DNA of 43,229 nucleotides from Candidatus Woesearchaeota archaeon. Lineage in GTDB: Archaea > Nanobdellota > Nanobdellia > SCGC-AAA011-G17 > GW2011-AR20. The DNA is taken from NCBI GenBank assembly GCA_016181245.1, contig JACOZR010000018.1:1-43229 (forward strand). Reading direction: 5' to 3'. The translations under genes and the position numbers were made by a program. Shown piece by piece: positions 9,090 through 40,191 of the stretch. The notes under the pieces were generated by a model. The model made no database searches and was not told the origin of the DNA. It worked only from the letters and a program-made list of their open reading frames with translations. The number at the start of each line of letters is the position of its first letter. Within the stretch, counting starts at the first letter, position 1.

Positions 9090-9109
9090 ATTAATTGATT
9101 GGATAAATG

Positions 9110-9120: not shown

Positions 9121-9128
9121 TTAATGCT

Positions 9129-9203
9129 TTATTCTCTAAATGGGATTTCTTTTCCTTCTACCTTCAATATCTTAAGACTTGCTTTTTTATTCCAATCATA
9201 CAT
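9129..9203 (-). CDS. 24-codon frame overlapping the endonuclease 3' end (possible former C-terminus)
   Basis: Starting at the ATG at 9203, which overlaps the endonuclease stop codon by eight bases, a frame reads MYDWNKKASLKILKVEGKEI then PFRE and stops. The overlap and the protein-like composition suggest it was once the continuation of the endonuclease or intein frame, later cut off by a frameshift. It might still be translated by coupling. Too short to identify. Confidence 0.3.
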   Translation of the reverse strand: MYDWNKKASLKILKVEGKEIPFRE

Positions 9204-10248: not shown

Positions 10249-10270
10249 AGTTTAATATTAGTATATGCTA

Positions 10271-10280
10271 TTATATATAA
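10271..10280 (-). promoter_or_regulatory. TATA box of the homing endonuclease gene
   Basis: TTATATATAA is centred 27 bases before the endonuclease ATG at 10248 on the reverse strand, fitting leaderless transcription independent of the lonB N-half gene. Confidence 0.55.
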
Positions 10281-10310
10281 ATGTTTGTATTTTATAGTTA
10301 AATGATAACA

Positions 10311-10320
10311 TTTAAAAATA
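10311..10320 (+). promoter_or_regulatory. TATA-like element of the small RHH gene
   Basis: TTTAAAAATA is centred 25 bases before the ATG at 10340. Together with the box at 10271-10280 it forms a divergent promoter pair between the endonuclease and the RHH gene. Confidence 0.4.
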
Positions 10321-10339
10321 ATGAAACTTTTATAAGATT

Positions 10340-10480
10340 ATGAAAAAAATAGAGAAGGTTATGGTTTATTTTCCTGAAGATCTTTCTAAGAAGTTAAAAG
10401 AGATTGCTGAGAAGAATACTAGATCTATTTCGGGGCAAGTAGTTCATTATGTAAAACAGGGAATTAAGATGGAAGATTAA
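10340..10480 (+). CDS. Ribbon-helix-helix (antitoxin-like) small DNA-binding protein, 46 residues
   Basis: The peptide starts MKKIEKVMVYFPEDLSKKLK, continues EIAEKNTRSISGQVVHYVKQ and ends GIKMED. That is a short beta-strand (KVMVYFP), helix (EDLSKKLKEIAEKN) and second helix after a Ser-rich turn (SISGQVVHYVKQGI), the ribbon-helix-helix pattern of Arc/CopG/antitoxin repressors. It lies antisense between the intein N-fragment gene and the endonuclease gene, divergent from the latter. Its TAA directly abuts the stop of the intein N-fragment (no spacer base). A partner toxin is not visible, so a repressor of the endonuclease promoter is the more natural guess. Confidence 0.65.
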   Translation: MKKIEKVMVYFPEDLSKKLKEIAEKNTRSISGQVVHYVKQGIKMED

Positions 10481-11497
10481 TTAAGATATTGTGATAACCC
10501 TATCAAATCTTGTCAATTTCTGTGCTTCTTTGTATATTATTTTTCCAAATCTTCTTACTGCCACTTTATGTTCCGGTGTTACTATTAATATTTTTCCTTT
10601 TTCTGTTATGAATTTTATTAGTTTTCCTTTGTAAAAATAACGGTTTGCCGATAATACTTCTACTTCTTCTGTATCTTTGCCTTTTTTTCCTAAAATAAAT
10701 AATTCTTTTTTGTTTGTAAAGAAGGCTTCATATTTTCCTTTCTTGATTAATTTGTTTCTATTTTTTTCAAATAAAGGATCTAATAACCCTTTTAGTTTTA
10801 TTTCTTGTAGAGTTTTAATTTCACTTTTTCCATTTTGTATTATTTTTACTACTTTTGTGTTAGGAAAAAAAGTTTGGAGCGGGTCATGAAGTACATCGCC
10901 GAATAATGCACCTGAATGAGCCCCCGTAGCATCGATGAAAGGTGCTTTCTTTGTTTTTGCATTATCAATTAAAAGCTTTGGTACTTTAAATTCTCCGTTC
11001 ATCTTGACTCTTTTATTTACATTGATGAATATAACAAAAGCTGCTAAAAATATCATCGATGAGATTAGTGAAGCTGCTGCTAGGATATCCCCGTATTGCT
11101 TTCTTACCCACCACGGGGTTATGATTGCTAAGATAATTAAAATAAAAAAGATAATATTTTGATTTTTGAAGGAAGCCATTAATTGTATTTTTGCTTTATC
11201 TACCATCGCTCTTCCCTGACCTCTTGGGACGGTTCTTATCTTGGGAACATTTTCGTCTGCATGATTGGGGTAAGAAAGAACGTCTACTAACTTTTCTTTT
11301 GGCAACAATTCTGCTAGAGCTTGGCCTAGAATACTCTTTCCGGTTCCTGGTTGGCCGATTAATAAAACATTTCTTCTTTGCTCTGCTGCCTTTTTTATGA
11401 TATTCTTGGCATTTTCCTGGCCAACTACTTGATCTATAATTCTTTCTGGAACTTTTATTTCTGATGTAGATTTAAAGTTGAGAAGATCTTTTGCCAT
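10481..11497 (-). CDS. lonB: LonB protease N-terminal half fused to an intein N-fragment (split gene)
   Basis: 338 residues. Residues 1-208 are the N-extein: Walker A GQPGTGKS (48-55), two membrane helices (about 114-130 and 139-158) placed as in archaeal membrane-bound LonB, then ATGAHSGALFGDVLHDPLQ. Residues 209-338 (130 residues) are an intein N-fragment: block A TFFPNTKVVKI, a beta-rich body, block B with the T-x-x-H signature (IVTPEHKVAV) and a stop after FDRVITIS. The first intein residue is Thr (codon ACT) where Cys or Ser is usual. Without the C-half it lacks Walker B and the protease. A TATA-like element (11516-11528) is ~25 bases upstream. Confidence 0.93.
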   Translation of the reverse strand: MAKDLLNFKSTSEIKVPERIIDQVVGQENAKNIIKKAAEQRRNVLLIGQPGTGKSILGQALAELLPKEKLVDVLSYPNHADENVPKIRTVPRGQGRAMVDKAKIQLMASFKNQNIIFFILIILAIITPWWVRKQYGDILAAASLISSMIFLAAFVIFINVNKRVKMNGEFKVPKLLIDNAKTKKAPFIDATGAHSGALFGDVLHDPLQTFFPNTKVVKIIQNGKSEIKTLQEIKLKGLLDPLFEKNRNKLIKKGKYEAFFTNKKELFILGKKGKDTEEVEVLSANRYFYKGKLIKFITEKGKILIVTPEHKVAVRRFGKIIYKEAQKLTRFDRVITIS

Positions 11498-12344: not shown

Positions 12345-13550
12345 ATGAAAAAGGGGCTATCTAATTTCTTTGAAGAATATCTTACTAAAAACCCTCTTTT
12401 TGTTAATAAAAAGGCTTTACAAGGGAATTTTACTCCAGATAATATTTCACATAGAGATGAACAAATTAAACAATTGGCAAGTATTCTTGCACCTGCTTTG
12501 CGAATGGAAAAACCAAGTAATGTATTTTTGTATGGAAAAACTGGAACAGGAAAAACATGTGTTACTCAATACATAACTTCACAAATTTTTGACCTTAGCA
12601 AAAAAAAGAACTTGGATTTAAAGATTTGTTATCTCAATTGCAAACTAAAAAAAGTTGCAGATACAGAGTATAGATTAATGGCTGAACTTGCTAGAAATTT
12701 TGATGTTGAAGTTCCTGCTACAGGATTACCTACAGAAGAGGTTTACAAAATTTTTGTTAAGGCTATAGATAGTAATGAAAAAAAGCTTATTTTATTAATA
12801 CTTGATGAAATAGACCAGCTCGTAAGTAGAGTAGGAGATGGTGTTTTATACAATCTTACAAGACTTAATTCTGAACTTAAGAATTGTGAATTAAGCGTAA
12901 TTGGTATAAGTAACGATTTGCTTTTTACAGATGATTTAGACCCTAGAATAAAATCTAGTTTGAGTGAAGAAGAGCTTGTATTTCCCCCTTATAATGCAAT
13001 TCAATTACAAGATATTTTGAGAGAAAGATCTGCTATAGCTTTTCGTGAAAATGTAATTGAATCAGGCGTTATTGAGAAATGTGCTGCTTATGCTGCAAGA
13101 GAACATGGAGATGCAAGAAGAGCTTTGGAACTTTTGAGAGTTTCTGGTGAACTTGCAGAAAGATCAAATAGTGAAATTATAAAAATTAAACATATAGATG
13201 AAGCAGAAGAAAAAATTGAGAAAGATACTGTGCTTGATGTTGTTAAGACTCAACCGAAACAAAGTCAAATTGCCCTATATTCTATTTTAAAAGTTTGCAC
13301 CAATGAAAATCATATCTTTACAGGAGATGTTTATGATTATTATAAAGATATTTGTAGACAGGTTGGTGCAAAATCATTAACACAAAGAAGAATTAGTGAT
13401 ATTATAGCAGAGTTAGACATGTTTGGGATTATACATGCCCGTGTTGTTAGTAAAGGTAGATATGGTAGAACAAAAGAGATTACCTTAGGTATTCCGTTAT
13501 CAACTCTTCCAAAATTAGAGGAAACATTGAAGGAGGGTCTTGGTCTTTAG
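12345..13550 (+). CDS. cdc6: Orc1/Cdc6 origin recognition and helicase-loading ATPase
   Basis: From the ATG at 12345 the protein has 401 residues, typical for archaeal Orc1/Cdc6. Walker A is GKTGTGKT (64-71), Walker B ILDEIDQL (about 152-159), and the sensor-2 region reads EHGDARRALELLR. A C-terminal winged helix (about 320-400, with QRRISDIIAELDMFGII) binds origin boxes. It binds oriC and loads MCM. It stands next to an origin candidate and is followed with essentially no gap by both PolD subunits, so initiation and elongation genes are transcribed together. The GTG at 12285 is an alternative start that I reject. Confidence 0.95.
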   Translation: MKKGLSNFFEEYLTKNPLFVNKKALQGNFTPDNISHRDEQIKQLASILAPALRMEKPSNVFLYGKTGTGKTCVTQYITSQIFDLSKKKNLDLKICYLNCKLKKVADTEYRLMAELARNFDVEVPATGLPTEEVYKIFVKAIDSNEKKLILLILDEIDQLVSRVGDGVLYNLTRLNSELKNCELSVIGISNDLLFTDDLDPRIKSSLSEEELVFPPYNAIQLQDILRERSAIAFRENVIESGVIEKCAAYAAREHGDARRALELLRVSGELAERSNSEIIKIKHIDEAEEKIEKDTVLDVVKTQPKQSQIALYSILKVCTNENHIFTGDVYDYYKDICRQVGAKSLTQRRISDIIAELDMFGIIHARVVSKGRYGRTKEITLGIPLSTLPKLEETLKEGLGL

Positions 13551-26376: not shown

Positions 26377-26649
26377 ATGTTAAGAACAAAAAGAGTCACA
26401 GAAGTTTATGATATGAAGGTTTTTACCGATGATGGAAACTATTTTGGTGATATTGAAGAAACTATTTTAGGTTCTAACAAAGTTTTTGGATGGAAAGTAA
26501 GGGCAACTAAGGGGTCTTATCTAAGCAAGGTTTTAGGTGGTGCTAAAGGGGTTATTGTTCCACACCAGATGATAAGGTCTTTTGGTGATGTTGTTCTAAT
26601 TAGTAAAGATGCTATTCCACAGCAAGAACAGAGTGAAGAAGAAGAGTAA
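26377..26649 (+). CDS. PRC-barrel-like domain protein with acidic tail
   Basis: 90 residues. VTEVYDMKVFTDDGNYFGDIEE followed by NKVFGWKVRA and GVIVPHQMIRSFGDVVLISK gives the strand order of a PRC-barrel. The last nine residues are mostly Gln/Glu. It is diverged from the one at 11550-11813. It starts the forward block that continues into three membrane-protein genes (32 bases apart, with a separate TATA at 26651-26660), so co-function with the pilus-like system is possible but unproved. Confidence 0.7.
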   Translation: MLRTKRVTEVYDMKVFTDDGNYFGDIEETILGSNKVFGWKVRATKGSYLSKVLGGAKGVIVPHQMIRSFGDVVLISKDAIPQQEQSEEEE

Positions 26650-26681: not shown

Positions 26682-27266
26682 ATGGCTTCATCTTTGCAGA
26701 ATGCTGTTCAATTTTTTCAAGAATTTGGTTTATTTGATGTAGTTTTGCCATTTCTTTTGGTTTTTTCTCTTGTTTTTGCAGTGCTTGAGAAAACTATGAT
26801 TCTAGGGAAAGAAACCCATGGTGGGAGAGATATTCCAAATAAAAATTTGAATGCCTCGATGGCTTTTGTTATAGCTATGTTGGTTATTGCAAGCACTAGA
26901 ATTGTAGGCATAATCAATACCGCTTTACCAAATATAATGCTTTTATTGGTTGTTTCATTAATGTTCCTTTTGCTTATTGGGATATTTGTTGGAACTGGAG
27001 AACTTAATTTTTCAAAAGAGCATACAAAGGCAAATACTTTTATCTTATTTGTCATGTTTTTTGGTGTTGTTTTGGTTTTTTTAGATGCTATTCCAACTGA
27101 TTCTGGTAAAAGCTGGTTGGATTTTGTTTGGGATTTTATTTTAAATCAATGGAGTGGAGCTGTGTTTTCATCCATTGTCATACTACTGGTGATTATAGGA
27201 GCAATACTTTATGTAACAAATACTCCTAAACCTTCTGGCGGAGAAAATAGAAAAGGAGCTGATTAA
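26682..27266 (+). CDS. Tandem paralogous membrane protein 1 of 3
   Basis: 194 residues, about five membrane helices. The N-terminal phrase LFDVVLPFLLVFSLVFAVLEKT and then KNLNASMAFVIAMLVI recur in the next two genes, so the three are tandem duplicates. A polar loop (about 37-50) contains Gly/His residues; the C-terminus is short and polar (TPKPSGGENRKGAD). No family name can be given. Position ahead of secretion ATPase, platform and pilin-like genes suggests a membrane component of that apparatus. TATA ATTTATATAG (26651-26660) is 26 bases upstream; the following gene starts after two bases. Confidence 0.65.
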   Translation: MASSLQNAVQFFQEFGLFDVVLPFLLVFSLVFAVLEKTMILGKETHGGRDIPNKNLNASMAFVIAMLVIASTRIVGIINTALPNIMLLLVVSLMFLLLIGIFVGTGELNFSKEHTKANTFILFVMFFGVVLVFLDAIPTDSGKSWLDFVWDFILNQWSGAVFSSIVILLVIIGAILYVTNTPKPSGGENRKGAD

Positions 27267-27268
27267 TT

Positions 27269-27841
27269 ATGGTTTCACAAATACAAGATGTTTTTGCACA
27301 ATTGCAGAATATTGGGCTTTATGATTTTATATTACCTTTTTTATTGGTTTTTACTATTGTTTTTGCTATTCTGGAGAAAACTTATATTTTTGGAAAAACT
27401 AGCGGTCCAAATGGAGAATCTAAAAGGAATATAAATGCTGTTGTTGCCCTTGTTTTAGGACTGATAATTGTTAATCAATTTGAAATCATTCAAAGCTTGA
27501 ATAACTTTTTACCTAAGATATCTTTTTTCATAATTGTATCTTTAATGATACTAATTTTATTTGGGTTGTTTGGTGCTAATGTAGAGAGAGGATTGAGTGG
27601 ATTTTTATTGACTGGTGCTGCAATTATATCTCTTGTTGCTACTTATTGGGCTTTGGGGCCTAGCTTGGACTTTAGAGTTCCTTATTGGGTGCAAGACAAT
27701 GCCTCAACCATTCTTGTTTTGTTAATAATTTTAATAATAATATTTGCTGTTGTAAGTGGTGGAGGCAATAGGCAACAAAATACATTTGATACTTGGCATA
27801 ATAACTTGGAAAAACTTTGGGGTAGAGGTCCTTCTCACTAA
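27269..27841 (+). CDS. Tandem paralogous membrane protein 2 of 3
   Basis: 190 residues and about five membrane helices. It opens with LYDFILPFLLVFTIVFAILEKT and continues with KRNINAVVALVLGLII, matching the first copy almost position for position. It differs in its middle loops and ends in a hydrophilic tail with Gly/Asn/Gln and a WHNNLEKLWGRG segment. The start is two bases after the stop of copy 1 and the stop directly abuts the ATG of copy 3, so the three are translated from one message and may form a hetero-oligomer. Confidence 0.65.
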   Translation: MVSQIQDVFAQLQNIGLYDFILPFLLVFTIVFAILEKTYIFGKTSGPNGESKRNINAVVALVLGLIIVNQFEIIQSLNNFLPKISFFIIVSLMILILFGLFGANVERGLSGFLLTGAAIISLVATYWALGPSLDFRVPYWVQDNASTILVLLIILIIIFAVVSGGGNRQQNTFDTWHNNLEKLWGRGPSH

Positions 27842-28405
27842 ATGGCAACTGTTTTAGATATTAGCTTATTGAAACTTATTGCACCTATTTTTTCATTTAT
27901 TTTTGTTTTTACTCTTGTCTATGCAGTTATGGACAAGTTTAAACTAGTTGGGGATAATAAGGGAATTCATGCAGCAATTGCCTTCTCAATAGCAATGGTA
28001 TTCATGTTTGCAGGAGATGCTATCAAATTTGTTAATTTCATAACCCCCTGGTTTATCATTATGCTTATTGTAGGAATGTTTATAATTACATTTTTTGTGT
28101 TCTTTGGCGTTTCTACAAAAACAATAGGAGAGCAGGTTATGACTGATCCAAGGGTTGTTTGGACAATCATCATAATTAGCATTATTATATTATTTGTTTC
28201 TATAGGCCAGGTATTTGGTTCTGATTTGCCTGGGCAGTTTGATGAAAATGGTCAAAGAATTTCAGTAGAGAATGATAGTGGAACTGCAACATCTGAAGGG
28301 TTACAGGCAATTGTACATCCTAGGGTCTTGGGCGCATTATTCTTATTAGTTATTGCTGCCTTTGCTATAAGGCTTATATCTGAAAATGTAGTGCCCATAA
28401 AATAA
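27842..28405 (+). CDS. Tandem paralogous membrane protein 3 of 3
   Basis: 187 residues, the most diverged copy: IFSFIFVFTLVYAVMDKFKLVG and KGIHAAIAFSIAMVFMF take the places of the conserved phrases, and LEKT becomes MDKF. It has about five membrane helices, with one longer polar loop (about 125-155, PGQFDENGQRISVENDSGTA) before the last helix, probably outside the membrane. It has no gap to copy 2. It converges on the coiled-coil genes on the reverse strand, one base apart. Confidence 0.65.
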   Translation: MATVLDISLLKLIAPIFSFIFVFTLVYAVMDKFKLVGDNKGIHAAIAFSIAMVFMFAGDAIKFVNFITPWFIIMLIVGMFIITFFVFFGVSTKTIGEQVMTDPRVVWTIIIISIIILFVSIGQVFGSDLPGQFDENGQRISVENDSGTATSEGLQAIVHPRVLGALFLLVIAAFAIRLISENVVPIK

Positions 28406-28406
28406 A

Positions 28407-28991
28407 CTATTTTTTTAATTTATTAGTTATTCTTTCTAATTCTTTTATGTTTGTGACTAAAGGATCCAGTATTTTTTCAAATACTTTTTCCAAGGCTTTC
28501 ATTTCAGTGCTAATATTCAGTATATTTTCATTATATTCAGAAACTTTTCCTAGAACTGCTTTTTGTAAATTATTGAAACGATCTTGTGTTCTAATTAGTT
28601 CTTGTTTTATAGAAACCATTTCTCTATCTGTACGCTCTTTCCAGAGCTCAAAATTCCCGGCCCTAGCCATGAATTCTTGCCATCTCTCTTCTATAATTGA
28701 TTCTGCTATTTCTTGGATTTCTTCTGATGAAGAAGATTGTTGGTAATACTGAGGATTATAATTTCTTTCTACTACTGGGAATTGTGGACTTTCTTCCCAG
28801 GGAGAAGGAGCTTCTTCTATTAATTCTTGCTCAGCACTTTGTGGTTTTTCTTTTGTTTGCTGAGGTGCATTTGTTGTAAACTGATCTAGTGTATCCAGTA
28901 TATTCTGCTGTTTTTTTGGACTCTCATCAACTGGTTCTTGATTATCCATCTGACTGTAAGGATCTTTTTTTTGTTCTGGTATTTTTATCAC
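28407..28991 (-). CDS. Coiled-coil protein, FlaC/FlaE-like C-terminal part
   Basis: 194 residues. The first ~85 residues are low-complexity and rich in Gln, Pro, Glu and Ser. Residues ~88-194 are a long charged coiled coil, with LGKVSEYNENILNISTEMKA and VFEKILDPLVTNIKEL at the end. This C-terminal pattern (helix ending in a conserved Asp-Pro before a last helix) recalls archaellum FlaC/D/E proteins, which form the cytoplasmic ring around the FlaI motor. The GTG at 28991 overlaps the upstream gene by 50 bases; the ATG at 28949 (overlap 8) is the alternative. It is encoded opposite to the ATPase but beside it. Confidence 0.6.
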   Translation of the reverse strand: MIKIPEQKKDPYSQMDNQEPVDESPKKQQNILDTLDQFTTNAPQQTKEKPQSAEQELIEEAPSPWEESPQFPVVERNYNPQYYQQSSSSEEIQEIAESIIEERWQEFMARAGNFELWKERTDREMVSIKQELIRTQDRFNNLQKAVLGKVSEYNENILNISTEMKALEKVFEKILDPLVTNIKELERITNKLKK

Positions 28992-29367
28992 CCCTATTTT
29001 CTAAAGCTTTTTGTAATTGAGAATCTGTTACGAATTTTAGAGGATTCCAAAATTCTACATATTTCTCCAAAACCTTTAACTGCTCTTTTTTTGCGAAGAA
29101 TCTTAGTTCTTCGGCTATTTTTGCCATTGAATTTTTTATTTCAAACATCTCGGATTTTAAATCTCTTACATCCTGATTTACTTCTTTTATCTCTTGGTGA
29201 AGCTTTTTGTATTCTGCAATCATATTCTGATTTACTATTAAAACTCTATCTCTAAGGTTATCGTATCTTGCTTCCAAAAGCCTCACTCTTTCAGATGGAT
29301 CAATTTGAAATTGCTCTTGCATTGTTATTAATACATTACCCTGGCTTAAAAACATTTTGCTTTTCAT
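28942..29367 (-). CDS. Coiled-coil protein, FlaC/FlaE-like
   Basis: Up to 141 residues. A coiled coil spans about residues 25-100 (RVRLLEARYDNLRDRVLIVN to IAEELRFFAKKEQLKVLEKY) and is followed by FWNPLKFVTDSQLQKALENR, reminiscent of the short C-terminal segment of archaellum FlaE/FlaC ring proteins. The start is uncertain: the promoter spacing suggests translation may begin at codon 5 (29355) or at codon 16 (29322, MQEQFQ) instead of 29367. It is divergent from the secretion ATPase and overlaps the next coiled-coil gene, so these two likely form a motor-associated complex. Confidence 0.6.
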   Translation of the reverse strand: MKSKMFLSQGNVLITMQEQFQIDPSERVRLLEARYDNLRDRVLIVNQNMIAEYKKLHQEIKEVNQDVRDLKSEMFEIKNSMAKIAEELRFFAKKEQLKVLEKYVEFWNPLKFVTDSQLQKALENRGDKNTRTKKRSLQSDG

Positions 29368-29401: not shown

Positions 29402-31690
29402 ATGCTTTTTGATAAGAAAATTAAACCTGGAGATTATATCATTGAAAAAGAAGGTGCAAATACTATTCTTAAAATAAATTTTGATGGTTATCCTTCTGTG
29501 CCTAGTGTGGAAGATAGCGACTCTACTATGGCAAAAGTTGTAGACATTCTTGTGGAGTCTCCAGGTGTTAATACAATAATGTTTGCTCAAAGAAGAAATT
29601 ATGTTTACAGCTATGAACAGACTAACATCTTAAATGAAATTGCAGGGCTTTATAATTATTTAACAAAGCAAAAAAAAATCTTGTCTTTGAGCTTCTTTGA
29701 GCAAACAGAGGCTTTTCAGTTTTATTCTTCTGAATGGAGAGAAACTTTGAACTCTATTGTTTATAGCTTATTAAAGAGCGATCCTGCTGGAGCATATGTT
29801 GAACTTAAAAGAATTGCAAGGGATGAGCGTATAAAGATAAAAAAAACAGAATCTTTAGAAGAGGTACATGCGAGATCTGCCTACATTGAAACCCTTAATT
29901 ATCTTATCAAGTTGTTGGATGGAACTACATTGATTTCTAGCATTAAAAATTCTCTTGCCGGGCATGTAGTTGGAAGTAGAGGCATTTATCGAACTATTTT
30001 CAAACCGGAAGTAGGACCTGATTTTGTTTTTACTAGATTAATGGCTGATATTCCTTTGCACGCAGAGGAAATTGATGCTTATAGTTTAGATGCCGGGACA
30101 GATGTAACTATTTATAGAATTCCGAATGACATTAAGTATTATTACCATCTAAGTCCTCCTGAGTTTAAGATTTCTGAGGAAAAATATGTTTTGTTAGATT
30201 TAGCAAGAAATTCTATGCTTGAATATAAACCTAAAAAGGAAGAATTTACTGATCCAGAAAAAATGAGAAGAACCTTTTTTAACATTGGTAGAGATATGCT
30301 GGGGGAATTAGCCGAAAATAGAGGTTATGACTTAAGTTATGCTGAAATTGAGGAACTTGCACATATTCTCGTGAGGTATACTGTTGGATTTGGATTTGTT
30401 GAACTTTTGCTTAAAGACAAAAATATTCAAGATATTAATGTAAATGGTCCAATAGGAGAAACACCGCTTTTTATTGTTCATGCAAACTATGATGAGTGTA
30501 CTACTAACATTATTCCTGCAAGAGAAGACGGGGAAAGTTGGGCTACAAAGTTTAGAATAATTAGTGGAAGACCTTTGGATGAGGCTAATCCTGTTTTAGA
30601 TACTGAACTTGTTTTGCCTTATGCTAGAGTAAGAGTTGCTGCAATGGGCAGGCCATTAAACCCTACTGGATTGGCTTTTGCTTTTAGAAGGCATAGAGAT
30701 AACCCTTGGACATATCCTTTGTTTATTTCAAATAGAATGATGGGGCCTTATGCAGCAGGGCTTTTAAATTTCTTAGTTGATGGCGGGAGATCGATGTTAT
30801 TTGCAGGTACAAGAGGATCCGGAAAGACTTCTTTATTGGGAAGTACATTAGTGGAGTTGATGAGGAAACATAGGATAATTACTGTTGAAGATACGCAAGA
30901 GATTCCTGTTGATTATTTGAGAAAAATTGGATATAATATCCAATCGATGAAAGTTAGGAGTGCTTTGACTAAAGGTGGAAGTGAGGTCGGAGCTGACGAA
31001 GGAATAAGAACTAGTTTAAGATTTGGTGATAGTAGTTTGATTGTGGGTGAAATAAGATCTATTGAGTCAAAAGCTTTGTATGAAGCAATGAGAGTCGGAG
31101 CTTTAGCTAATTTGGTAGCGGGGACGATTCATGGAGCTAGCCCATATGCTGTATATGACAGAGTTGTAAATGATTTAGAAGTACCAAAAACAAGTTTTAA
31201 AGCAACAGATATAATTGTAATTAGCAATCCTGTCAAGACAAGCGGAGGATTGCATAAACAAAGAAGGGTTTTGCAAATTACTGAAGTTAGAAAACATTGG
31301 ACTGATGATCCCGTAAAAGAAAATGGATTTGTCGACTTGATGAAATATGATGTTAAAGATGATCTTCTAAAACCAACAGAAGCTTTGCTTCATGGAGACA
31401 GTGATGTTTTAAAATCAATCGCTTCTCAAGTCAAAGAATTTGTTGGGAACTGGGATGCTGTTTTGGAAAATATACAATTGAGAGCTAACATCAAAAGAAC
31501 TCTAGTTGAAACAGCTAATAAAATGGGAAACTATCAACTATTAGAAGCTGATTTTGTTGTTAAAAGTAATGATGCTTTTCATCAACTCATGGATGATGTG
31601 AGAGAAGAAAATGGAAGTTTAGATAGTAAACGCATCTTCTTTGAATGGAATGAATGGTTAAAAAAAGAGGTTAAGAATTTTAAGACATGA
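29402..31690 (+). CDS. Type IV pilus/archaellum-type secretion ATPase (FlaI/GspE family)
   Basis: 762 residues from the ATG at 29402. The N-terminal ~300 residues are a family-specific extension. The ATPase core then shows the N2-type region (LLKDKNIQDINVNGPIGETP), Walker A AGTRGSGKTS (about 468-477), the Asp box ITVEDTQEIP, Walker B SLIVGEIRSIESKALYEAMR and the His box AGTIHGASP. About 180 residues follow the core, longer than in classic FlaI. It powers assembly or retraction of a pilus-like fibre as a hexamer. The stop overlaps the platform gene by ATGA. Confidence 0.92.
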   Translation: MLFDKKIKPGDYIIEKEGANTILKINFDGYPSVPSVEDSDSTMAKVVDILVESPGVNTIMFAQRRNYVYSYEQTNILNEIAGLYNYLTKQKKILSLSFFEQTEAFQFYSSEWRETLNSIVYSLLKSDPAGAYVELKRIARDERIKIKKTESLEEVHARSAYIETLNYLIKLLDGTTLISSIKNSLAGHVVGSRGIYRTIFKPEVGPDFVFTRLMADIPLHAEEIDAYSLDAGTDVTIYRIPNDIKYYYHLSPPEFKISEEKYVLLDLARNSMLEYKPKKEEFTDPEKMRRTFFNIGRDMLGELAENRGYDLSYAEIEELAHILVRYTVGFGFVELLLKDKNIQDINVNGPIGETPLFIVHANYDECTTNIIPAREDGESWATKFRIISGRPLDEANPVLDTELVLPYARVRVAAMGRPLNPTGLAFAFRRHRDNPWTYPLFISNRMMGPYAAGLLNFLVDGGRSMLFAGTRGSGKTSLLGSTLVELMRKHRIITVEDTQEIPVDYLRKIGYNIQSMKVRSALTKGGSEVGADEGIRTSLRFGDSSLIVGEIRSIESKALYEAMRVGALANLVAGTIHGASPYAVYDRVVNDLEVPKTSFKATDIIVISNPVKTSGGLHKQRRVLQITEVRKHWTDDPVKENGFVDLMKYDVKDDLLKPTEALLHGDSDVLKSIASQVKEFVGNWDAVLENIQLRANIKRTLVETANKMGNYQLLEADFVVKSNDAFHQLMDDVREENGSLDSKRIFFEWNEWLKKEVKNFKT

Positions 31691-33879
31691 ATGAAGAGGA
31701 GATTATAGCCAAGTATCAGAAGAAATTAAAGAGTAATATCTCTATGGAAGATGTAGAAGGATATAGTCCTACTACTTTTTCGAGAGAATATCAGCGTTTC
31801 AGAAAAGACTCACTCAGTACTGGAAGGAATTTATACGAAAATGCGTGCAATAATCTTGAGGATGTTTTAAGAATTAAAGTAAAAGATAAAGATTATGATA
31901 AGCTCAAAGAGAGTATTGATATAATCCATTTAGATATCACTCCTGAAGGAGCAGCAAGTTTCGCAAGCTTCGTTTCTCTATTTGTTATCTTTATTGGCTT
32001 GTTTTTAAGTGGTTTTATTTGGGTTATTACAGGAGAATTTAGCTTTACTATTTTGATATTATTCTTGTTTTTCTTTTTTGTTGGAGCTTTGTTATTGAAA
32101 CCTTTGACCTCTATTCCTAACTATATTGCTAATAAATGGAGATTAAGAGCAGGTAATCAAATGGTTCTCTGCATTCTTTACGTTGTTATGTATATGAGGC
32201 ATACTTCAAACTTAGAACATGCTTTAAAATTTGCAGCAGATCATGTTGGTAATCCCTTATCTTTAGATTTAAGAAAAATATTTTGGGATGTTGAAACTGG
32301 AAAGTATTCGACTATTAAAGAAAGTCTTGATTCTTATCTTGTTAAATGGAGAGATTACAATCTTGAATTTGTCGAGGCTTTTCATTTAATTGAAGGAAGC
32401 TTATTAGAAGAGAGTGAAGATAGAAGAATAAGTTTATTGGAAAAATCTTTGGAAGTTATACTTGATGGAATGTATGAAAGAATGCTGCATTACGCACATG
32501 AATTGCAGAATCCCATAACAATATTAAATATGCTTGGTGTTGTTTTGCCTGTTTTAGGTTTAGTTATATTACCTTTGATAGGTAGCTTGGTTCAAGGAAG
32601 CGGAGCCATGAAAGCGTTTGTTTTGTTTTTACTTTATAACTTATTTTTACCGACTTTTTTGTATCTATTCGGAACAAGTGTATTAGCAAAGAGACCTACT
32701 GGGTATAGTGAAGCGGACATTATTAAGAAGAATCCCAAACTTAGAAAATATTCTTATATAATCCTTCCAATAGGAAACAGAGAAATTTTATTTCATCCTT
32801 TTTGGGTAGGCTTTTTTGTTTTTTTAGTTGTTGGCTTTATTGGGTTAATACCTTTGCTTATGATGTTAAGCGGAATTGATTTTTCTTTTTTAGGAATGAA
32901 TGTTGTGAACATGACTTCTGTTGACGGTAAAAATTGCAGCTTTGGTGAAAATTGTTTTGGCCCTTTTGGTCCTGGTTCTGTCTTGTTTGGTTTGTTCTTT
33001 CCTTTGGGGCTAGCTTTAGGCATTGGAACTTATTATAGGCTAAGAAGCAAAAATCTCATTGCATTAAGAAATAATATCAAGAATTTAGAAAAAGAATTTT
33101 CTGGTGGCTTGTTTCAACTAGGAAACAGAGTTGGAGATGGAGTGCCTGTTGAAGTAGCTTTTAATGATGTTGCCCAGAATATGGAGGGAACTCCTACAGG
33201 AGATTTTTTTAGAACTGTCAGCTACAACCTTCAGAGATTAGGTATGAGTGTCAAAAGTGCTTTATTTGGAAGCAATGGAGCTATTAGGATGTTTCCTAGT
33301 AGCCTAATTGAAACAAGCATGAAAGTTTTATTGGAAAGCAGTAAAAAGGGAACTGCAATTGTTGCTAAATCTTTGATTAGTATATCTACTTATGTTAACA
33401 GAATTCATCAAGTAAATGAAAGATTAAATGATTTATTGAGTGATACATTGTCTAGTATGAAAAGTCAAATTAGTTTTTTAAGCCCAATTATTTCTGGAAT
33501 TGTTGTTGGAATAAGTACTATGATTGTTACTATTATTGTGAAACTTGTTGTCGAACTTAATGTGCAATCTGGTGGAGCAGATTCTGTTGTTCCTGGAAAT
33601 TTGGCTGCTATTGCTGGTATATTCAGCATATCAAATATAATTCCTAGTTACTACATGCAGCTTATTATTGGGTTATATCTAGTTGAAATTGTAATAATAT
33701 TGACTTTATTATCTACTCGAATTGAGCATGGTCTTGATTCTTTACAAGAACAATATAACTTAAGCAGCAACTTGTTTTCATCTTCTATATTGTACTTCAT
33801 TTTGGCAGTTATTGTTACAGTGATATTTACTTTCTTAGTATCTTCAATTGTACCTACGTCTTCTGCATCGTTTAATTAA
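31687..33879 (+). CDS. Membrane platform protein (FlaJ/TadC/GspF family)
   Basis: 730 residues with two T2SF-like halves. The first has membrane helices near residues 98-140 and a cytoplasmic helical domain (NQMVLCILYVVMYMRHTSNL, then LLEKSLEVILDGMYERMLHY) and ends in helices near 275-335. The second repeats the plan (FSGGLFQLGNRVGDGVPVEV to MSVKSALFG) and ends in three C-terminal helices. Between them a long loop after two helices contains CSFGENCFGPFGPG, probably outside and possibly disulfide-bonded, which is unusual. It anchors the ATPase and extrudes the fibre. It overlaps the ATPase gene (ATGA) and the convergent methyltransferase gene by eight bases. Confidence 0.88.
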   Translation: MNEEEIIAKYQKKLKSNISMEDVEGYSPTTFSREYQRFRKDSLSTGRNLYENACNNLEDVLRIKVKDKDYDKLKESIDIIHLDITPEGAASFASFVSLFVIFIGLFLSGFIWVITGEFSFTILILFLFFFFVGALLLKPLTSIPNYIANKWRLRAGNQMVLCILYVVMYMRHTSNLEHALKFAADHVGNPLSLDLRKIFWDVETGKYSTIKESLDSYLVKWRDYNLEFVEAFHLIEGSLLEESEDRRISLLEKSLEVILDGMYERMLHYAHELQNPITILNMLGVVLPVLGLVILPLIGSLVQGSGAMKAFVLFLLYNLFLPTFLYLFGTSVLAKRPTGYSEADIIKKNPKLRKYSYIILPIGNREILFHPFWVGFFVFLVVGFIGLIPLLMMLSGIDFSFLGMNVVNMTSVDGKNCSFGENCFGPFGPGSVLFGLFFPLGLALGIGTYYRLRSKNLIALRNNIKNLEKEFSGGLFQLGNRVGDGVPVEVAFNDVAQNMEGTPTGDFFRTVSYNLQRLGMSVKSALFGSNGAIRMFPSSLIETSMKVLLESSKKGTAIVAKSLISISTYVNRIHQVNERLNDLLSDTLSSMKSQISFLSPIISGIVVGISTMIVTIIVKLVVELNVQSGGADSVVPGNLAAIAGIFSISNIIPSYYMQLIIGLYLVEIVIILTLLSTRIEHGLDSLQEQYNLSSNLFSSSILYFILAVIVTVIFTFLVSSIVPTSSASFN

Positions 33880-34468
33880 CTTTTTTTATTCTAAATATAA
33901 TATTTTTTCCTAAGAAGTTTGAACTCATAATTTTAAAATTATTTTTTTTAATTATTTTTTTTAATTCAAAATAGCCTATGAAATTGTAATACCTTTGCAA
34001 AATTTCATCTTTCTTTTTCCAAGGAATATATGTTTCCTGTTTCTTTAATATAAACTTTAACTGTAATTTATTCCATACTGTTATAAATGCTTCTCCATTT
34101 GGTTTTAAAACTCTGTTTATTTCTTTTATTGCTTTTTCTGGATTTTTTAAATGGTGTAATGTTGCTATTGCTAAAATGTAGTTAAATGTGTTGTTTTTGA
34201 ATTTTGTATTTGTTATTTCTGCATGTTTTAAAATTACTTTGAAATTATGTTTTTTTGAGAATTTTTTTGCTTCTTTTAGCATTTCTTTTGAGAAATCAAG
34301 ACCGTAACATTTTAAATTTTTGAAAGGCAATAGATTTCTGCAATTTCCACAACCCAAATCCAAGATTTTTCCTCTTTTCCAATTTAAATCTTTTAACTCT
34401 CCTATTGGCTTATTTCTAAAATTATTCCATGATTGCGCAATTTTATCCCATACTTTTTGCTGGTTCAT
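33872..34468 (-). CDS. SAM-dependent methyltransferase, Trm9/ALKBH8-like
   Basis: 198 residues, class I Rossmann methyltransferase. Motif I is ILDLGCGNCRNLLPF (about 35-49), motif II YGLDFSKEML, motif IV ILAIATLHHLKNPEKA, and motif V/VI INRVLKPNGEAFITVWN. The opening VWDKIAQSWNNFRNKPI and the late ETYIPWKKKDEILQRYYNFI match the tRNA wobble-uridine methyltransferase branch (Trm9/ALKBH8), so tRNA is the likely substrate. A generic small-molecule methyltransferase remains possible. Its end overlaps the platform gene by eight bases. Confidence 0.8.
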   Translation of the reverse strand: MNQQKVWDKIAQSWNNFRNKPIGELKDLNWKRGKILDLGCGNCRNLLPFKNLKCYGLDFSKEMLKEAKKFSKKHNFKVILKHAEITNTKFKNNTFNYILAIATLHHLKNPEKAIKEINRVLKPNGEAFITVWNKLQLKFILKKQETYIPWKKKDEILQRYYNFIGYFELKKIIKKNNFKIMSSNFLGKNIIFRIKKVN

Positions 34469-34510
34469 TTTTTTACAAATATTTTTAAACTTTATATACC
34501 TTTTATTTTT

Positions 34511-34771
34511 ATGAGAATAGAAAAGAGGATTTGGCCTGAGGCTTTTCAGAAAATTTTAGATGGAATAAAGAATGTTGAACTTAGATTGGCGGATTTTGAG
34601 TGCAATCCTGGAGATATTTTGGTGTTAAGGGAGTATGATCCTAAAACTAAAGAGTATACTGGAAGAGTCATTGAAAAGGAAGTAAAATATGTAATGAGAA
34701 CGAAAGAACAACCTTATTGGTCAAAAGAAGAAGTTGAAAAATATGGATTCCAAATTATGTCATTTAAGTAA
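34511..34771 (+). CDS. DUF3850-type ASCH-fold protein
   Basis: 86 residues from the ATG at 34511 (a longer frame upstream is not protein-like, and a TTTATATA element near 34490 sits at leaderless distance). WPEAFQKILDGIKNVELRLADFECNPGDILVLREYDPK is the hallmark of the DUF3850/ASCH-like PUA-related fold, ending GRVIEKEVKYVM. Such domains are believed to bind RNA or modified nucleotides. An unrelated-length ASCH protein follows at 34800, so two such proteins are adjacent, next to a Trm9-like enzyme. Confidence 0.8.
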   Translation: MRIEKRIWPEAFQKILDGIKNVELRLADFECNPGDILVLREYDPKTKEYTGRVIEKEVKYVMRTKEQPYWSKEEVEKYGFQIMSFK

Positions 34772-34799
34772 ACTATTTAAAACAAAAATTAAATAAATC

Positions 34800-35237
34800 A
34801 TGGAACATATTGCAATAATGAGAAAGTCTTGGGATTTGACTCAAAAAATTTTGACAGGACAAAAGAAAATTGAATCAAGATGGTATAAAGTAAAATATGC
34901 TCCCTGGAATAGAATTAAATCTGGTGATGTTGTTTATTTTAAAGATTCTGGTGAGCCTGTTACTATAAAAACGGAAGTTGATAAAGTTATTCAGTTTTCT
35001 GATTTAAATCCAGAAAAAGTTAGAGAGATTTTGTATCAATATGGCCAAGCTGATGGTCTAGGTATCGATACAATACCCGAATTTTTTGAAATGTTCAAAG
35101 ATAAGAAATATTGCATGTTAATTTTTTTGAAAAACCCACAAAAAATAATTCCATTTGAAATTGATAAATCTGGATTTGGCGCAATGTCCGCATGGATCTC
35201 TATTGATGATATAAACAGGATAAAGGTGAACTCCTAA
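34800..35237 (+). CDS. ASCH domain protein
   Basis: 145 residues. IMRKSWDLTQKILTGQKKIESRWYKVKYAPWNRIKSGDVVYFKD gives the ASCH beta-barrel start with the conserved GxKxxExR-like GQKKIESRW. The C-terminal part (FLKNPQKIIPFEIDKSGFGAMSAWISID) is the extension seen in archaeal stand-alone ASCH proteins. Predicted to bind RNA; some relatives act on RNA or modified bases. A TTTAAAAC element near 34773-34780 is ~24 bases upstream, so it has its own leaderless promoter. Confidence 0.75.
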   Translation: MEHIAIMRKSWDLTQKILTGQKKIESRWYKVKYAPWNRIKSGDVVYFKDSGEPVTIKTEVDKVIQFSDLNPEKVREILYQYGQADGLGIDTIPEFFEMFKDKKYCMLIFLKNPQKIIPFEIDKSGFGAMSAWISIDDINRIKVNS

Positions 35238-35326: not shown

Positions 35327-35434
35327 ATGAAAAAAGGGGCAATGTCATTAATTCTAGTTATGATTCTTTTACTCGTACTTGTTATATTACTATTGTTAAT
35401 CTTTATGGGTGGTTTGAAAAATGTTTTTCAATAA
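35327..35434 (+). CDS. Very small pilin-like membrane protein, 35 residues
   Basis: The peptide MKKGAMSLILVMILLLVLVI, then LLLLIFMGGLKNVFQ, is a basic Gly-containing start followed by one hydrophobic helix, the pattern of a class III (prepilin-type) signal and little else. TATA-like CTATTTAAAATA (35298-35309) is ~24 bases before the ATG. Its end overlaps the next pilin-like gene by 14 bases. With a sibling mini-protein at 36304-36453 it may be a minor subunit or assembly peptide of the fibre. Confidence 0.6.
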   Translation: MKKGAMSLILVMILLLVLVILLLLIFMGGLKNVFQ

Positions 35435-36311
35435 AAAAGGAGAAACTTATAATACTGTTTTAGGTTTGGTAGCTCTTGCTCTTGTTGCTGTTCTGTTCTT
35501 AGGGATATTTACTCCTCTTTTTGGAGATTTAGCTAATAAGACAGATGATAGTACTTGTGAATCTTGGGTTCGCTTACAAGCTAAGGCTAAATTTGGAGGG
35601 ATAAGGTCTATTTCCAGCAACAATCCCTGTGTTACTAATATTGATACATTAAAAAATAAAGAGAGTTCTGAAGTTTATGCTGACTTTGCGAAAAAAGCTT
35701 ATCATTGCTCTTCTAAATATGGGGGTGGTAATGCGGATTTTCTAAGTGACTGGGTTGCTGTAAATCCTTTTTATGAAGGAACTTATTGTTTTGTCTGTTC
35801 TGAGACCACTATAGGTGAAGATGTTAAACTTAAAGAATTTGACTTAAATACATTTGAACTTTATCTTTCTCAAAATAATGTTCCAGGACAAATTATTGGC
35901 GAAAAAAAGACTTATACAGATTATCTTACAGAAGCAAAGAACTCTAAAATTGATTTTGGAGATGGTAAAATACCCTTAAAACAAGGTTCTAAGATTTACA
36001 CCATCTTTACTGTGCTAAAGACTAATGTCGCACCTTCTCTTACTGAACAAGTTGTTGATGGATTTTCTAGTGTATTTGAAAAAACTTTAACATCCACTAC
36101 TTTGGCAGCTGTTGCCACTAGATCTATTCAAGGTACTGTATCTGGGGCAATCTTTGGTTTTGTTTATTCAAGCACTGAAGCAAGTTTTGGTAAGAATTAT
36201 GCTTATCCTGGTTTAGTTATTGCAAACACAGATGATGTGACTAAATTGGGATGTTCACAAATTCATTTTAAACCCAATAAAGGAATAATTGAAGGTATAA
36301 AAAGTGCATAA
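35421..36311 (+). CDS. Pilin-like secreted protein, 296 residues
   Basis: The start FFNKKGETYNTVLGLVALALVAVLFLGIF is a basic KKG processing site followed by a hydrophobic helix, as in prepilins. The large C-terminal part is extracytoplasmic, with paired cysteines (STCESWVRL, NNPCVTN, AYHCSSKYGG, YCFVCSET, LGCSQ) that may form disulfides. A second hydrophobic, glycine-rich stretch near residues 220-250 (ATRSIQGTVSGAIFGFVYSS) could be a further membrane or amphipathic segment. Part of the run of pilin-like genes that continues to 40191. Confidence 0.6.
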   Translation: MFFNKKGETYNTVLGLVALALVAVLFLGIFTPLFGDLANKTDDSTCESWVRLQAKAKFGGIRSISSNNPCVTNIDTLKNKESSEVYADFAKKAYHCSSKYGGGNADFLSDWVAVNPFYEGTYCFVCSETTIGEDVKLKEFDLNTFELYLSQNNVPGQIIGEKKTYTDYLTEAKNSKIDFGDGKIPLKQGSKIYTIFTVLKTNVAPSLTEQVVDGFSSVFEKTLTSTTLAAVATRSIQGTVSGAIFGFVYSSTEASFGKNYAYPGLVIANTDDVTKLGCSQIHFKPNKGIIEGIKSA

Positions 36312-36455: not shown

Positions 36456-37031
36456 ATGAATAAAAAAGGTGAAAATTTACTTCATTATGTTGTACCCATA
36501 ATCTTGATTCTTTTAGTTCTTGTCTTGATTATAACTTTCTCTTTTTCTACTACTAATTTTGGAAAGTCTGTTCTTAAGATGCTCGGACTGAGCGATGATA
36601 ACTCTCTTGCTCAGAAAAATGAAGAAGCACAGAACAGTTTTAAAGAATTTACTAAAAATTTAAAACAATGTTCACAATACAAAGAGGATAATTGTTTTTG
36701 TAATGCTCCTTTAGCTGGGTTTTCCGATATCCATGCAGTTAAGGCATCACAAAAAGGCGTAAAAATAGAAACTGTGAAAGATAGTAGCGAAGTTACACTA
36801 GCTGAAGAAAGTATTCAGCATACATCTTGTTATGTCTCTAATGTAGGATTTTCTGTTAAAGACTCTTTGGTTATATACTTTGATGAAGAAAGTGCTTATA
36901 CTCTTGTTAATGGATTTATTGAAGATAATAAGGTAAGGCTTTTAGCAACTAACAATATTTATAAAAAACAGGGTAACTTATGCTTTATTACTAGTGATTT
37001 TGTTGAAAAGCCAAAGAAGTGTGAGAAATAG
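36456..37031 (+). CDS. Pilin-like secreted protein, 191 residues
   Basis: MNKKGENLLHYVVPIILILL and onward to IITFSFS is a KKG prepilin-type signal with one hydrophobic helix. The outer part (about 30-191) contains the phrase CSQYKEDNCFCNAPLAGFSD and later cysteines (HTSCYV, LCFITS, KKCEK). A comparable cysteine cluster occurs in the protein at 37679-38233 (CNGKGCICLCEKS), so the two may be distant relatives. Expected outside the cell on the fibre or cell surface. Confidence 0.6.
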   Translation: MNKKGENLLHYVVPIILILLVLVLIITFSFSTTNFGKSVLKMLGLSDDNSLAQKNEEAQNSFKEFTKNLKQCSQYKEDNCFCNAPLAGFSDIHAVKASQKGVKIETVKDSSEVTLAEESIQHTSCYVSNVGFSVKDSLVIYFDEESAYTLVNGFIEDNKVRLLATNNIYKKQGNLCFITSDFVEKPKKCEK

Positions 37032-37080: not shown

Positions 37081-37473
37081 ATGTTATTTCCAAAAGACAA
37101 GAAAGGCGCAGAGTTATCAATGAATGTTATTGTTATTGTAATCATTCTTGTCATTGTTCTTGTTGTTATGGTATCATTTTTTTATGGTGGGTTTGGTCCA
37201 TTAACTGATAGAATAAGACAGGTTGGACCAGACACTAAGGATGTTGCTGTAGCGGATTGTAAATCTAAATGCCAACTTGCTCAGGGTGCAGAAGGAGATA
37301 ATGCAAAAGAAAAATCATCTTACTGCAGGAAGCTTGTAAATGTAGATAGTGATGCAGATGGAACAGCGGATCAGAAACATAGATGTTGGAGTAATGAAAT
37401 AGGGGAGCAATGCCCAGGAGTTACGTCTATTTGTGAGAGGAAATACCCTGATGCTTTTGATACTATTGAGTAA
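37081..37473 (+). CDS. Pilin-like secreted protein, 130 residues
   Basis: KKGAELSMNVIVIVIILVIVLVVMVSFF is a textbook class III signal and helix: basic KKG, cleavage after Gly, then AELS leading into a long hydrophobic stretch. The outer domain has six cysteines (DCKSKC, YCRKL, RCWSN, QCPGV, ICERK) and a DSDADGTADQ motif like a calcium-binding EF-hand/dockerin-type loop. A Shine-Dalgarno-like GAGGT lies seven to eight bases upstream and a TATA (about 37055-37066) suggests a fresh transcript start here. Confidence 0.65.
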   Translation: MLFPKDKKGAELSMNVIVIVIILVIVLVVMVSFFYGGFGPLTDRIRQVGPDTKDVAVADCKSKCQLAQGAEGDNAKEKSSYCRKLVNVDSDADGTADQKHRCWSNEIGEQCPGVTSICERKYPDAFDTIE

Positions 37474-37678: not shown

Positions 37679-38233
37679 ATGAAGAAGAGGGCTGAAGAAA
37701 GTTCAAGCAGTGCCGGTTTGACTGTGGCTGGTTTGGTTATTTTTGCTATTGTTTTAGTTCTTATTACACCTGCTATTTCTAGGGCATGGTCTTTGCTTTT
37801 TGCTGAAGATGAGGATACAAGTCAGTCTACAAGAGAGTTTTATACCCAATTAGTTGACACTATAACTCAGTTGAAAGAAGGGAGTAAAACAGAACTCTTA
37901 TTTTCATTGAATAATGATTTTGTGCTAGTGGGGTTTCGAAAAGATCAAGACTCTTTTTCAGGAAGTTGTCAAGATATTTCTTTGGATGTTAAAAAACAGC
38001 TTCAGTGTAATGGAAAGGGGTGTATTTGTCTTTGCGAGAAAAGTACATTTACTAAAGAAATTTGCGGCTCTGAAGGAGATGTTTGCAATCCTTTTGAATT
38101 AGACGTTATTGATACTAAATCTGATTGCGGAATTCTTTTTGTTAAACCAAATATTGTGACTACTTTGGCCGTTACTAAGGATAAAATAAAAATTGATATT
38201 AATTCTTTAAATTCTAGAGAACTTGCCAATTGA
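37679..38233 (+). CDS. Pilin-like secreted protein, 184 residues
   Basis: The N-terminus MKKRAEESSSSAGLTVAGLV, then IFAIVLVLITPAI, gives a basic start, a serine-rich stretch and a single helix. The outer region has a mixed alpha/beta look (REFYTQLVDTITQLKEGSKT, ELLFSLNNDFVLVGF) and a dense cysteine cluster (SCQDI, QCNGKGCICLCEKS, ICGSEGDVC, DCGIL) that probably forms disulfides. The basic stretch before the helix deviates from KKG, so prepilin-peptidase processing is less sure here. Confidence 0.6.
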   Translation: MKKRAEESSSSAGLTVAGLVIFAIVLVLITPAISRAWSLLFAEDEDTSQSTREFYTQLVDTITQLKEGSKTELLFSLNNDFVLVGFRKDQDSFSGSCQDISLDVKKQLQCNGKGCICLCEKSTFTKEICGSEGDVCNPFELDVIDTKSDCGILFVKPNIVTTLAVTKDKIKIDINSLNSRELAN

Positions 38234-38615: not shown

Positions 38616-39041
38616 GTAATCCCTATTATCTTTGTTTCTCTGATACTTATTGTTTTTTTTATTATTCCAAGTTCTTATGCACAAATTGATACAAGTAATG
38701 CTGATCATGTTGTTATTAAGAAAAATTTGCTATACAATTGTTTAGCTTATAATGATGTAAGAACCCATCCTGGAATTATTGATAGCAATTCTTTTAATGA
38801 GGATAGAATCCAGAGATGTTTGGGGTTTAGTGGTGATTCTTATGGGGTTATTCTTAACCTGAATTATGATGACAAGAATTCTGAAGTTTTTGTCAATAAG
38901 CGTATGACTGATAGAATTACTTTTTGTTCATCTAAAGGATCTTTTCAATGTAATAACGAAGATATTTATGTAACTATTTATGAAAAAGATCAACTAAAAA
39001 TAGGATTACTAAATATTAAAATTATAGGACTCAAAAAATGA
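38616..39041 (+). CDS. Secreted protein lacking a visible start codon (probable frameshift at its 5' end)
   Basis: The open frame from 38616 encodes an obvious signal peptide (VIPIIFVSLILIVFFIIPSS then YAQ) and a 110-residue outer domain with cysteines (YNCLAY, QRCLGF, FCSSKGSFQC). No ATG, GTG or TTG precedes the signal; a stop codon directly does. In the -1 frame just upstream lies KKRIFK, a natural basic N-region, so one missing G near 38616 would restore it. The TTG at 38727 would discard the signal and is unlikely. Either the gene is damaged, uses an unusual start, or the sequence has an error. Its end overlaps the next gene (ATGA). Confidence 0.5.
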   Translation, partial: VIPIIFVSLILIVFFIIPSSYAQIDTSNADHVVIKKNLLYNCLAYNDVRTHPGIIDSNSFNEDRIQRCLGFSGDSYGVILNLNYDDKNSEVFVNKRMTDRITFCSSKGSFQCNNEDIYVTIYEKDQLKIGLLNIKIIGLKK

Positions 39042-39487
39042 AAAAAGGACAATATCAATATCTCCTGTTTATTTATGGATTGATTATTCTTATAATTGCT
39101 TTGCTATTTGGTGGTTTTCTTTTTTCTTTTAAATCTGGTACAGATGTCAAAACTTATCAAGACTATTCTAGTTTAGACATTAATTTTTTAAATTATCTTA
39201 GAACTCCTGTAACTATTAATGGATTGGGATTTTCTATGGGGGATTTGATTGTTTATAGTTATTATACGAATGATTTTAACAAATTGGATGAACAGACACA
39301 CTTGATTTTCAACAAGTTTTATGGAGAGAAATGCTCTTGGGAGGTCAGCTATTCTCTTAAGGAAAGCCAAAACTTTCATATTGTTAACAACTTAGGTTTA
39401 CTTCCTACTGATTCTCGTTCAGCTCATGCTATTATTCCCGGGTTTAAAGGAGAAAATATAAAGGTGGAGTTAAAAGAAAAATGTTAA
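39038..39487 (+). CDS. Pilin-like protein, 149 residues
   Basis: MKKGQYQYLLFIYGLIILII and onward to LLFGGFLFSF shows the KKGQ prepilin boundary and a long helix. The outer domain (about 30-149) is strand-rich with a single pair of cysteines (EKCSWE and the last residue region KEKC). The phrase SSLDINFLNYLRTPVTINGLGFSMGDLIVYSYY resembles a repeated feature of DPANN pilin-like proteins that I have no name for. It overlaps its predecessor (ATGA) and the next gene by seven bases. Confidence 0.6.
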   Translation: MKKGQYQYLLFIYGLIILIIALLFGGFLFSFKSGTDVKTYQDYSSLDINFLNYLRTPVTINGLGFSMGDLIVYSYYTNDFNKLDEQTHLIFNKFYGEKCSWEVSYSLKESQNFHIVNNLGLLPTDSRSAHAIIPGFKGENIKVELKEKC

Positions 39488-40191
39488 ACAAAAAAGGAAA
39501 TTTACTTTTAGTTGTATATGCAGTATTACTTCTTATAGTATTTAACCCACTTTATGCTCTTGCTACAGATTCGAATAACAGAATTAATATTTTTAGATCA
39601 GATTTAGGACGGCTCCAAGAAAGCATCAATGATGCATATTTTAATACTGAAGTTGAATTGTTTAAATCTGACCAATTAATTAAATATGATGTTTATAGAA
39701 TCACAAATGAATTTGGAGAAAATGGAGGATATTCTAAGGATAATTTATGTGAGAAGAAAGATGGAGTTGTTGTTATAGACTTTAAGGATTGTAATCCGGA
39801 TTTAAATGCTAATTACATTGAGCTGTTTAAGAAATATTTTGATAAAGAAATTAAAGATTTAGAATTAAAGGATAATAGTTTAATTGGTGAGTTAGATGAA
39901 GTTAAATACGATAAAAAAGGAGAAAATTTTGAAATTGACTATAATGCAGCCAATAAATTCAAACAGGATACTTTAATTGACTTAAAATTCTTAAATGAGC
40001 TAAAAAATAGGGTTAACAGTTGTGTAGAAAGAAAACAGGACTTGAAAGATTGCGTTGGTGTTGAGTTTACAGAGAAAGACGGATATGCATTTTTTACTAT
40101 AGAAAATGATAAAAATGGCCTTATGATTCTAGAAGGTGAGGTTGTTGTAATAAAAAAACCTGCTTTTAAATTTGCTGTGAAAAATGATTAA
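39481..40191 (+). CDS. Membrane-anchored secreted protein, 236 residues
   Basis: MLNKKGNLLLVVYAVLLLIV then FNPLYALA combines a KKG boundary with a helix ending in an ALA-like cleavage motif, so either prepilin or standard signal processing is possible. The outer part is lysine- and aspartate-rich, with a helical region (about 30-60) and three or four cysteines (DNLCEKKDG, DCNPDL, NSCVERKQDLKDC). It is the last gene of the pilin-like run; its final eight bases overlap the RPA-like gene. Confidence 0.55.
   Translation: MLNKKGNLLLVVYAVLLLIVFNPLYALATDSNNRINIFRSDLGRLQESINDAYFNTEVELFKSDQLIKYDVYRITNEFGENGGYSKDNLCEKKDGVVVIDFKDCNPDLNANYIELFKKYFDKEIKDLELKDNSLIGELDEVKYDKKGENFEIDYNAANKFKQDTLIDLKFLNELKNRVNSCVERKQDLKDCVGVEFTEKDGYAFFTIENDKNGLMILEGEVVVIKKPAFKFAVKND

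Follow-up and report, generated by a model that had tools for sequence, protein, structure and literature searches.

Three paralogous membrane proteins encoded beside type IV pilus-like motor genes in Nanobdellota

Genes and predicted products at the locus

The window (the whole 43,229-nucleotide stretch of DNA that was analysed) comes from a Woesearchaeota-type MAG of 0.9 Mb and carries three consecutive forward-strand genes for paralogous 5-TM membrane proteins. M1 (26682..27266; ORF of 194 aa) is the first of the trio, M2 (27269..27841; 190 aa) is its paralog, and M3 (27842..28405; 187 aa) is a more distant paralog. The lengths and abutting arrangement given in the first-pass annotation are exact, with gaps between the window ORFs of 2 nt (M1–M2) and 0 nt (M2–M3). 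The similarity among the three is far above chance, as that annotation had proposed, both in phmmer searches (1e-20 for M1–M2, about 5e-5 for M1–M3) and in profile–profile comparison with hhalign (E=2e-43 for M1–M2, 8e-21 for M1–M3, and 2e-19 for M2–M3). The LPFLLVF..VFAxLEKT motif sits in TM1; it was described as common to all three proteins, but although M1 and M2 show it clearly, M3 has a degenerate form (PIFSFIFVFTLVYAVMDKF). The (K/R)xINA motif, reported as an N-terminal signature, actually follows TM1 at about residues 54–61, and its position in M3 reads GIHAA. P, F, G, K, N, and L predominate among the near-invariant residues in the family alignments, which showed no conserved catalytic pattern.

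Directly upstream of M1 lies a gene for a 90 aa PRC-barrel protein (26377..26649, forward strand; PF05239, 21.6 bits against a cut-off of 21.2), which is a frequent neighbor in this position and occurs there both in the gene order of the window and in distant families (L088, L089, L096, and L097). It is a possible additional partner of the trio, of uncertain membership in the locus. Downstream, and convergent to M3, is CC1 (28407..28991, reverse strand), a soluble protein for which the family alignment shows a conserved C-terminal helical region with the motif VLGKVxEYDxNI...KAMEKVFxKILP. Most CC1 relatives also carry an N-terminal helical motif, MRxxGxxNxQIIQxLQRxGYxxxxIFDAxxQA, which is degenerate in the window protein. 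CC2 (28942..29367, reverse strand; true start probably at 29322) is a coiled coil with the motif KVLEKYIxLWxPxNFVT at its C terminus. The earlier description of the neighborhood was sound for a T2SSE ATPase, a platform protein, and two opposite-strand coiled-coil proteins, but the FlaC/E-like label for the latter does not hold: none of 23 CC1 and none of 20 CC2 relatives matched a Pfam archaellum family, and PF05377 gave no match at the CC1 and CC2 genes of the window's own genome.

The secretion ATPase of the T2SSE/FlaI/TadA superfamily (29402..31690, forward strand) matches PF00437 at E 2e-13 and 50 bits, against a cut-off of 24.9, which places it in the VirB11/T2SSE family. Its PDB matches are 2oap, CpaF (8rkd and 9e24), and FlaI, and its score of 119 bits against the NCBIfam FlaI/ArlI model is far below the equivalog cut-off of 550. 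The following gene (31687..33879, forward strand) encodes a membrane platform protein of a divergent TadC/FlaJ type. The window protein had no direct match in Pfam, and its sequence-based assignment as TadC/FlaJ-like is made through the family HMM, which scores 158 bits against a haloarchaeal 'secretion system protein' and aligns to the T2SSF proteins on contig C5 of the same genome with a probability of 96%.

Between the platform gene and the pilin-like genes (33872–35237) are a reverse-strand methyltransferase-like gene and two ASCH-like genes, and the methyltransferase is retained in the related locus L003. Six forward-strand ORFs behind the platform combine a KKG or KKA sequence with a hydrophobic stretch and are predicted class III-signal pilins: 35421..36311 (NKKGE followed by a hydrophobic segment), 36456..37031 (NKKGE), 37081..37473 (DKKGAELSMNVIVIVI, the best-conserved of these pilins), 37679..38233 (KKRAE), and two further ORFs at 39038–39487 and 39481–40191. 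A prepilin peptidase is encoded elsewhere in the genome (PF01478, 56.9 bits, at G000:C38). In most other gene orders, pilin genes were not found behind the platform.

Structure, ancestry, and distribution of the trio

M1–M3 form an undescribed family, as first suspected, with no relative in Pfam, NCBIfam, or the PDB, and the literature search found no publication describing the trio. Sequence matches of the trio in these three collections were rejected as hydrophobic noise; the same applies to an assignment of M1 to DUF2070 (PF09843), which scored 14.1 bits against a cut-off of 30. When 44 M1 relatives were searched against Pfam, no family matched more than 3 of them at E 1e-3, and neither Pfam nor NCBIfam returned a peptidase or insertase family for the trio.

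In an AF2 model of M1 (pLDDT 79.6, pTM 0.53, from a 28-sequence alignment), an amphipathic helix at the N terminus accompanies five membrane helices, and a short beta hairpin separates TM1 from TM2; helices are predicted at 17–38, 54–70, 72–104, 112–136, and 161–179. The M3 model shows the same five-helix layout at lower confidence (pLDDT 73). Foldseek found nothing under E 1 for the M1 model in the PDB, and VIA gave a best Z of 5.4 over a partial region only; the missing fold match does not argue for a new fold. Basic residues cluster in loop 1 and the C tail of both M1 and M2, and in M1 also in loop 3; the pattern is weaker in M3. Their placement in loops and tails suggests an N-out, C-in topology for the trio.

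A tree built from 148 proteins of about 50 loci placed M1, M2, and M3 in one clade each (SH-aLRT 95, 90, and 99, respectively); this was a quick run from which the most divergent families were left out. The three separate clades indicate that the triplication is older than the sampled families, and by their sequences the copies are not local duplicates. Comparison with L003 gave dN/dS values of about 0.05–0.13 for all three genes (about 0.07 for M1) at dS near saturation, as expected of genes that are each under purifying selection.

M1 is present in 186 of the 194 genomes sampled across Nanobdellota/Nanoarchaeota, and the ATPase is likewise present in 186. Profiles also recover the trio in divergent families such as f21, f52, f53, and f66, usually as matches about 600 bp apart, and a search with the M3 profile matched 54 of 56 relatives of G137. 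The trio was found in neither plasmids nor viral contigs. Copy number varies occasionally: L069 has two M2-type genes (7813–9041), which makes four M genes in a row, and in G005 (L101/L102) one contig carries M1, M2, and an M2-type gene, with two M3-type genes and CC1, CC2, ATPase, and platform genes on another.

Linkage of the trio with the motor genes

The usual gene order, with strands indicated, is M1>M2>M3> CC1< CC2< ATPase> platform>, and it is conserved in most of the loci read, from dozens of families. The gap between M2 and M3 is at most 30 nt in 42 of 49 loci; CC1 adjoins M3 in nearly all loci, on the opposite strand in 42 of 46, and CC2 co-locates with the ATPase. Both M1 and the ATPase could be located in 122 genomes among the matches listed, and in 87 of these, the trio and the ATPase lie within 10 kb of each other (median 4.6 kb; same strand in 85 of 87). 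Within Nanobdellota, therefore, the trio usually adjoins pilus-type motor genes, and this conserved gene order supports the proposed link to a pilus-type motor in the DPANN phylum.

The first-pass annotation held that frequent trios away from any secretion ATPase would count against such a link, and this is partly what was found, as 35 of the 122 genomes showed no close linkage. In 5 of them, the two lie on one contig, 14–330 kb apart (330 kb in G077); in the other 30, they are on different contigs, some of which reflect mere assembly breaks. An intact trio stands alone on several long contigs (L117–L120), and in every such genome the ATPase is nonetheless present. In 20 unlinked regions that were read, the trio is whole wherever the contig allows; in almost every region CC2 stays with the ATPase and platform, and CC1 is found with either side. 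This pattern of breaks suggests that the trio is one unit and the motor another. Four genomes lack both the trio and the ATPase (hypergeometric P 8e-5), which was rejected as strong support for linkage because the P value ignores phylogeny and missing contigs contribute. Missing contigs explain at least part of the co-absence, since one of these genomes (G033) lacks the trio and the ATPase yet keeps the platform.

A candidate subcomplex of a type IV pilus-like machine

We put at about even the chance that M1, M2, and M3 form an obligate hetero-oligomer in the membrane that is tied to CC1 and CC2 and is a subcomplex of a type IV pilus (T4P)-like machine. The machine looks T4P-like because its ATPase and platform have homologs in a haloarchaeal T4P-like pair and because, in the gene order of the window, class III-type pilins come after the platform. 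The main argument for hetero-oligomerization is the specialization of the copies, from which we infer a physical complex; three separately maintained paralogs thus favor this part of the earlier proposal, and a ring form for M1–M3 is only an idea. Throughout Nanobdellota, three non-interchangeable 5-TM paralogs would assemble into one membrane subcomplex, placed around or beside the platform with N-out, C-in topology and basic loops and tails in the cytoplasm. Assembly of the class III-signal pilins into a filament would be driven by a hexameric T2SSE ATPase together with the divergent TadC/FlaJ-like platform, and CC1 and CC2, as helical proteins of the cytosol, would bridge the trio to the ATPase. 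The trio may then be a scaffold or stator anchored in the membrane, analogous to ArlCDE/ArlX and ArlF/G of the archaellum or to PilMNOP of bacterial T4P. Evidence against this model comes from the sizeable minority of genomes in which the trio is apart from the ATPase and from the many gene orders that have no pilins behind the platform.

Stand-alone trios are not rare, and the main rival is therefore that the trio is an independent envelope complex (a channel, or a membrane scaffold related to the S-layer or to lipids) that lies with the motor in an old surface-function cluster without being part of it. The several lineages in which an intact trio is distant from the ATPase, the f52 trios (L086 and L087) that sit amid unrelated genes, and near-universal conservation, which is typical of a housekeeping envelope function, all point this way. 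However, the order with CC1, CC2, ATPase, and platform is kept in most families, and inspection of the flanks of stand-alone trios revealed no other recurrent partner, so that we regard an independent complex as a real possibility but an improbable one. It is decidedly unlikely that the trio handles pilins (prepilin insertion, chaperoning, or quality control in the membrane) rather than forming a structural part of the machine: small polytopic proteins within a pilin locus would suit such a role, and the stand-alone trio in L120 has two pilin-like ORFs directly downstream, but enzyme-like conserved residues and peptidase or insertase matches are absent, and pilins are often not near the trio. 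A divergent archaellum, with the trio substituting for archaellum stator parts, is very improbable. FlaI is the best-scoring NCBIfam model for the ATPase, but that score falls far under the FlaI cut-off, CC1 and CC2 match neither FlaC_arch nor Arch_fla_DE, and the nearest ATPase and platform relatives found here outside the phylum are a haloarchaeal T2SS/T4P-type pair. Recent tandem duplication into three interchangeable copies without specialized function is suggested by the tandem layout and the extra M2-type copy in L069 but is scarcely credible given the three separate clades over the sampled families and the low dN/dS in all three genes.

For the hetero-oligomeric subcomplex, the closest described setting is subclade 4F of the haloarchaeal T4P. 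Makarova et al. (2016; PMC4858521) report that halobacterial subclade 4F has a coiled-coil component and that nanoarchaea have the 4F ATPase too, but with no pilins that could be identified. The window locus, a putative member of 4F judged by sequence similarity to a haloarchaeal ATPase, fits that description, with a VirB11/T2SSE ATPase, a TadC-like platform, a cytosolic coiled-coil partner, and class III-signal pilins. It differs from 4F as described there in having two coiled-coil proteins and the three 5-TM paralogs, and the main-text passages on 4F describe no such trio (PMC4858521). Outside DPANN, the closest ATPase (34% identity) and the closest platform (158 bits) that we found both come from a secretion locus on Haloterrigena turkmenica pHTUR04 (L105), and no homologs of M1–M3, CC1, or CC2 were found in 19 kb around that pair.

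The archaellum (ArlI/J/H, ArlCDE/ArlX, and ArlF/G) has an ATPase of a related superfamily, and its accessory parts around the motor and platform are comparable by analogy only. Unlike in the archaellum, the ATPase here falls under the FlaI cut-off, and CC1 and CC2 relatives lack FlaC_arch or Arch_fla_DE matches; inspection by eye recognized no FlaH/ArlH-like ORF among the window ORFs. The bacterial Tad pilus (CpaF/TadA and TadB/TadC) shares the CpaF-like ATPase (8rkd and 9e24) but differs from the window locus, which has a single long platform protein. We know of no counterpart of the trio in either the archaellum or the Tad pilus. If the trio is a true T4P part, it would be a polytopic type of component for which we found no described T4P counterpart.

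Among the Nanobdellota are very small archaea, often ectosymbionts, and for most of their surface machines no genes have been assigned. A motor cassette that carries a three-paralog membrane module in almost all genomes offers a concrete candidate gene set for such machines, and the locus may also complete the system of the nanoarchaeal ATPase to which Makarova et al. could assign no pilins (PMC4858521). Cryo-ET of Nanobdella aerobiophila revealed archaella and a second, unassigned appendage, together with an attachment organelle (PMC11104419). A single-cell study found that non-synonymous diversity is high in a FlaJ/TadC homolog of Nanoarchaeota and suggested a role for T4P in symbiosis (PMC6142677). 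A tie between the locus and the structures seen in Nanobdella is speculation. We are doubtful, although we raise it, that a phylum-wide and perhaps phylum-specific subcomplex of three obligate paralogs turns the standard archaeal T4P motor into a surface machine of a different kind, which might be the second appendage or the attachment apparatus of Nanobdella (PMC11104419).

The genome of the window also encodes a conventional pilus locus (G000:C5; L085:10176–11190 and 13005–13502), which, like the locus studied here, has a T2SSE ATPase, a T2SSF platform, and pilins; its own pilins include several of the KSQAAMEFLMTYGWAI type. It differs in having no trio, a platform split into two ORFs, and a far nearer match to Pfam T2SSF. 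Its secretion ATPase ORF (L085:5308–8337) is one of several that are over-long or split (also L005:9878–13723 and L004:9210–12955), which suggests inteins or insertions within the motor gene in several relatives. Elsewhere in the window (7731–11497, reverse strand), a Lon-like protease gene appears to be interrupted by an intein-like insertion with a homing-endonuclease-like ORF at 9196–10248, as judged by eye.
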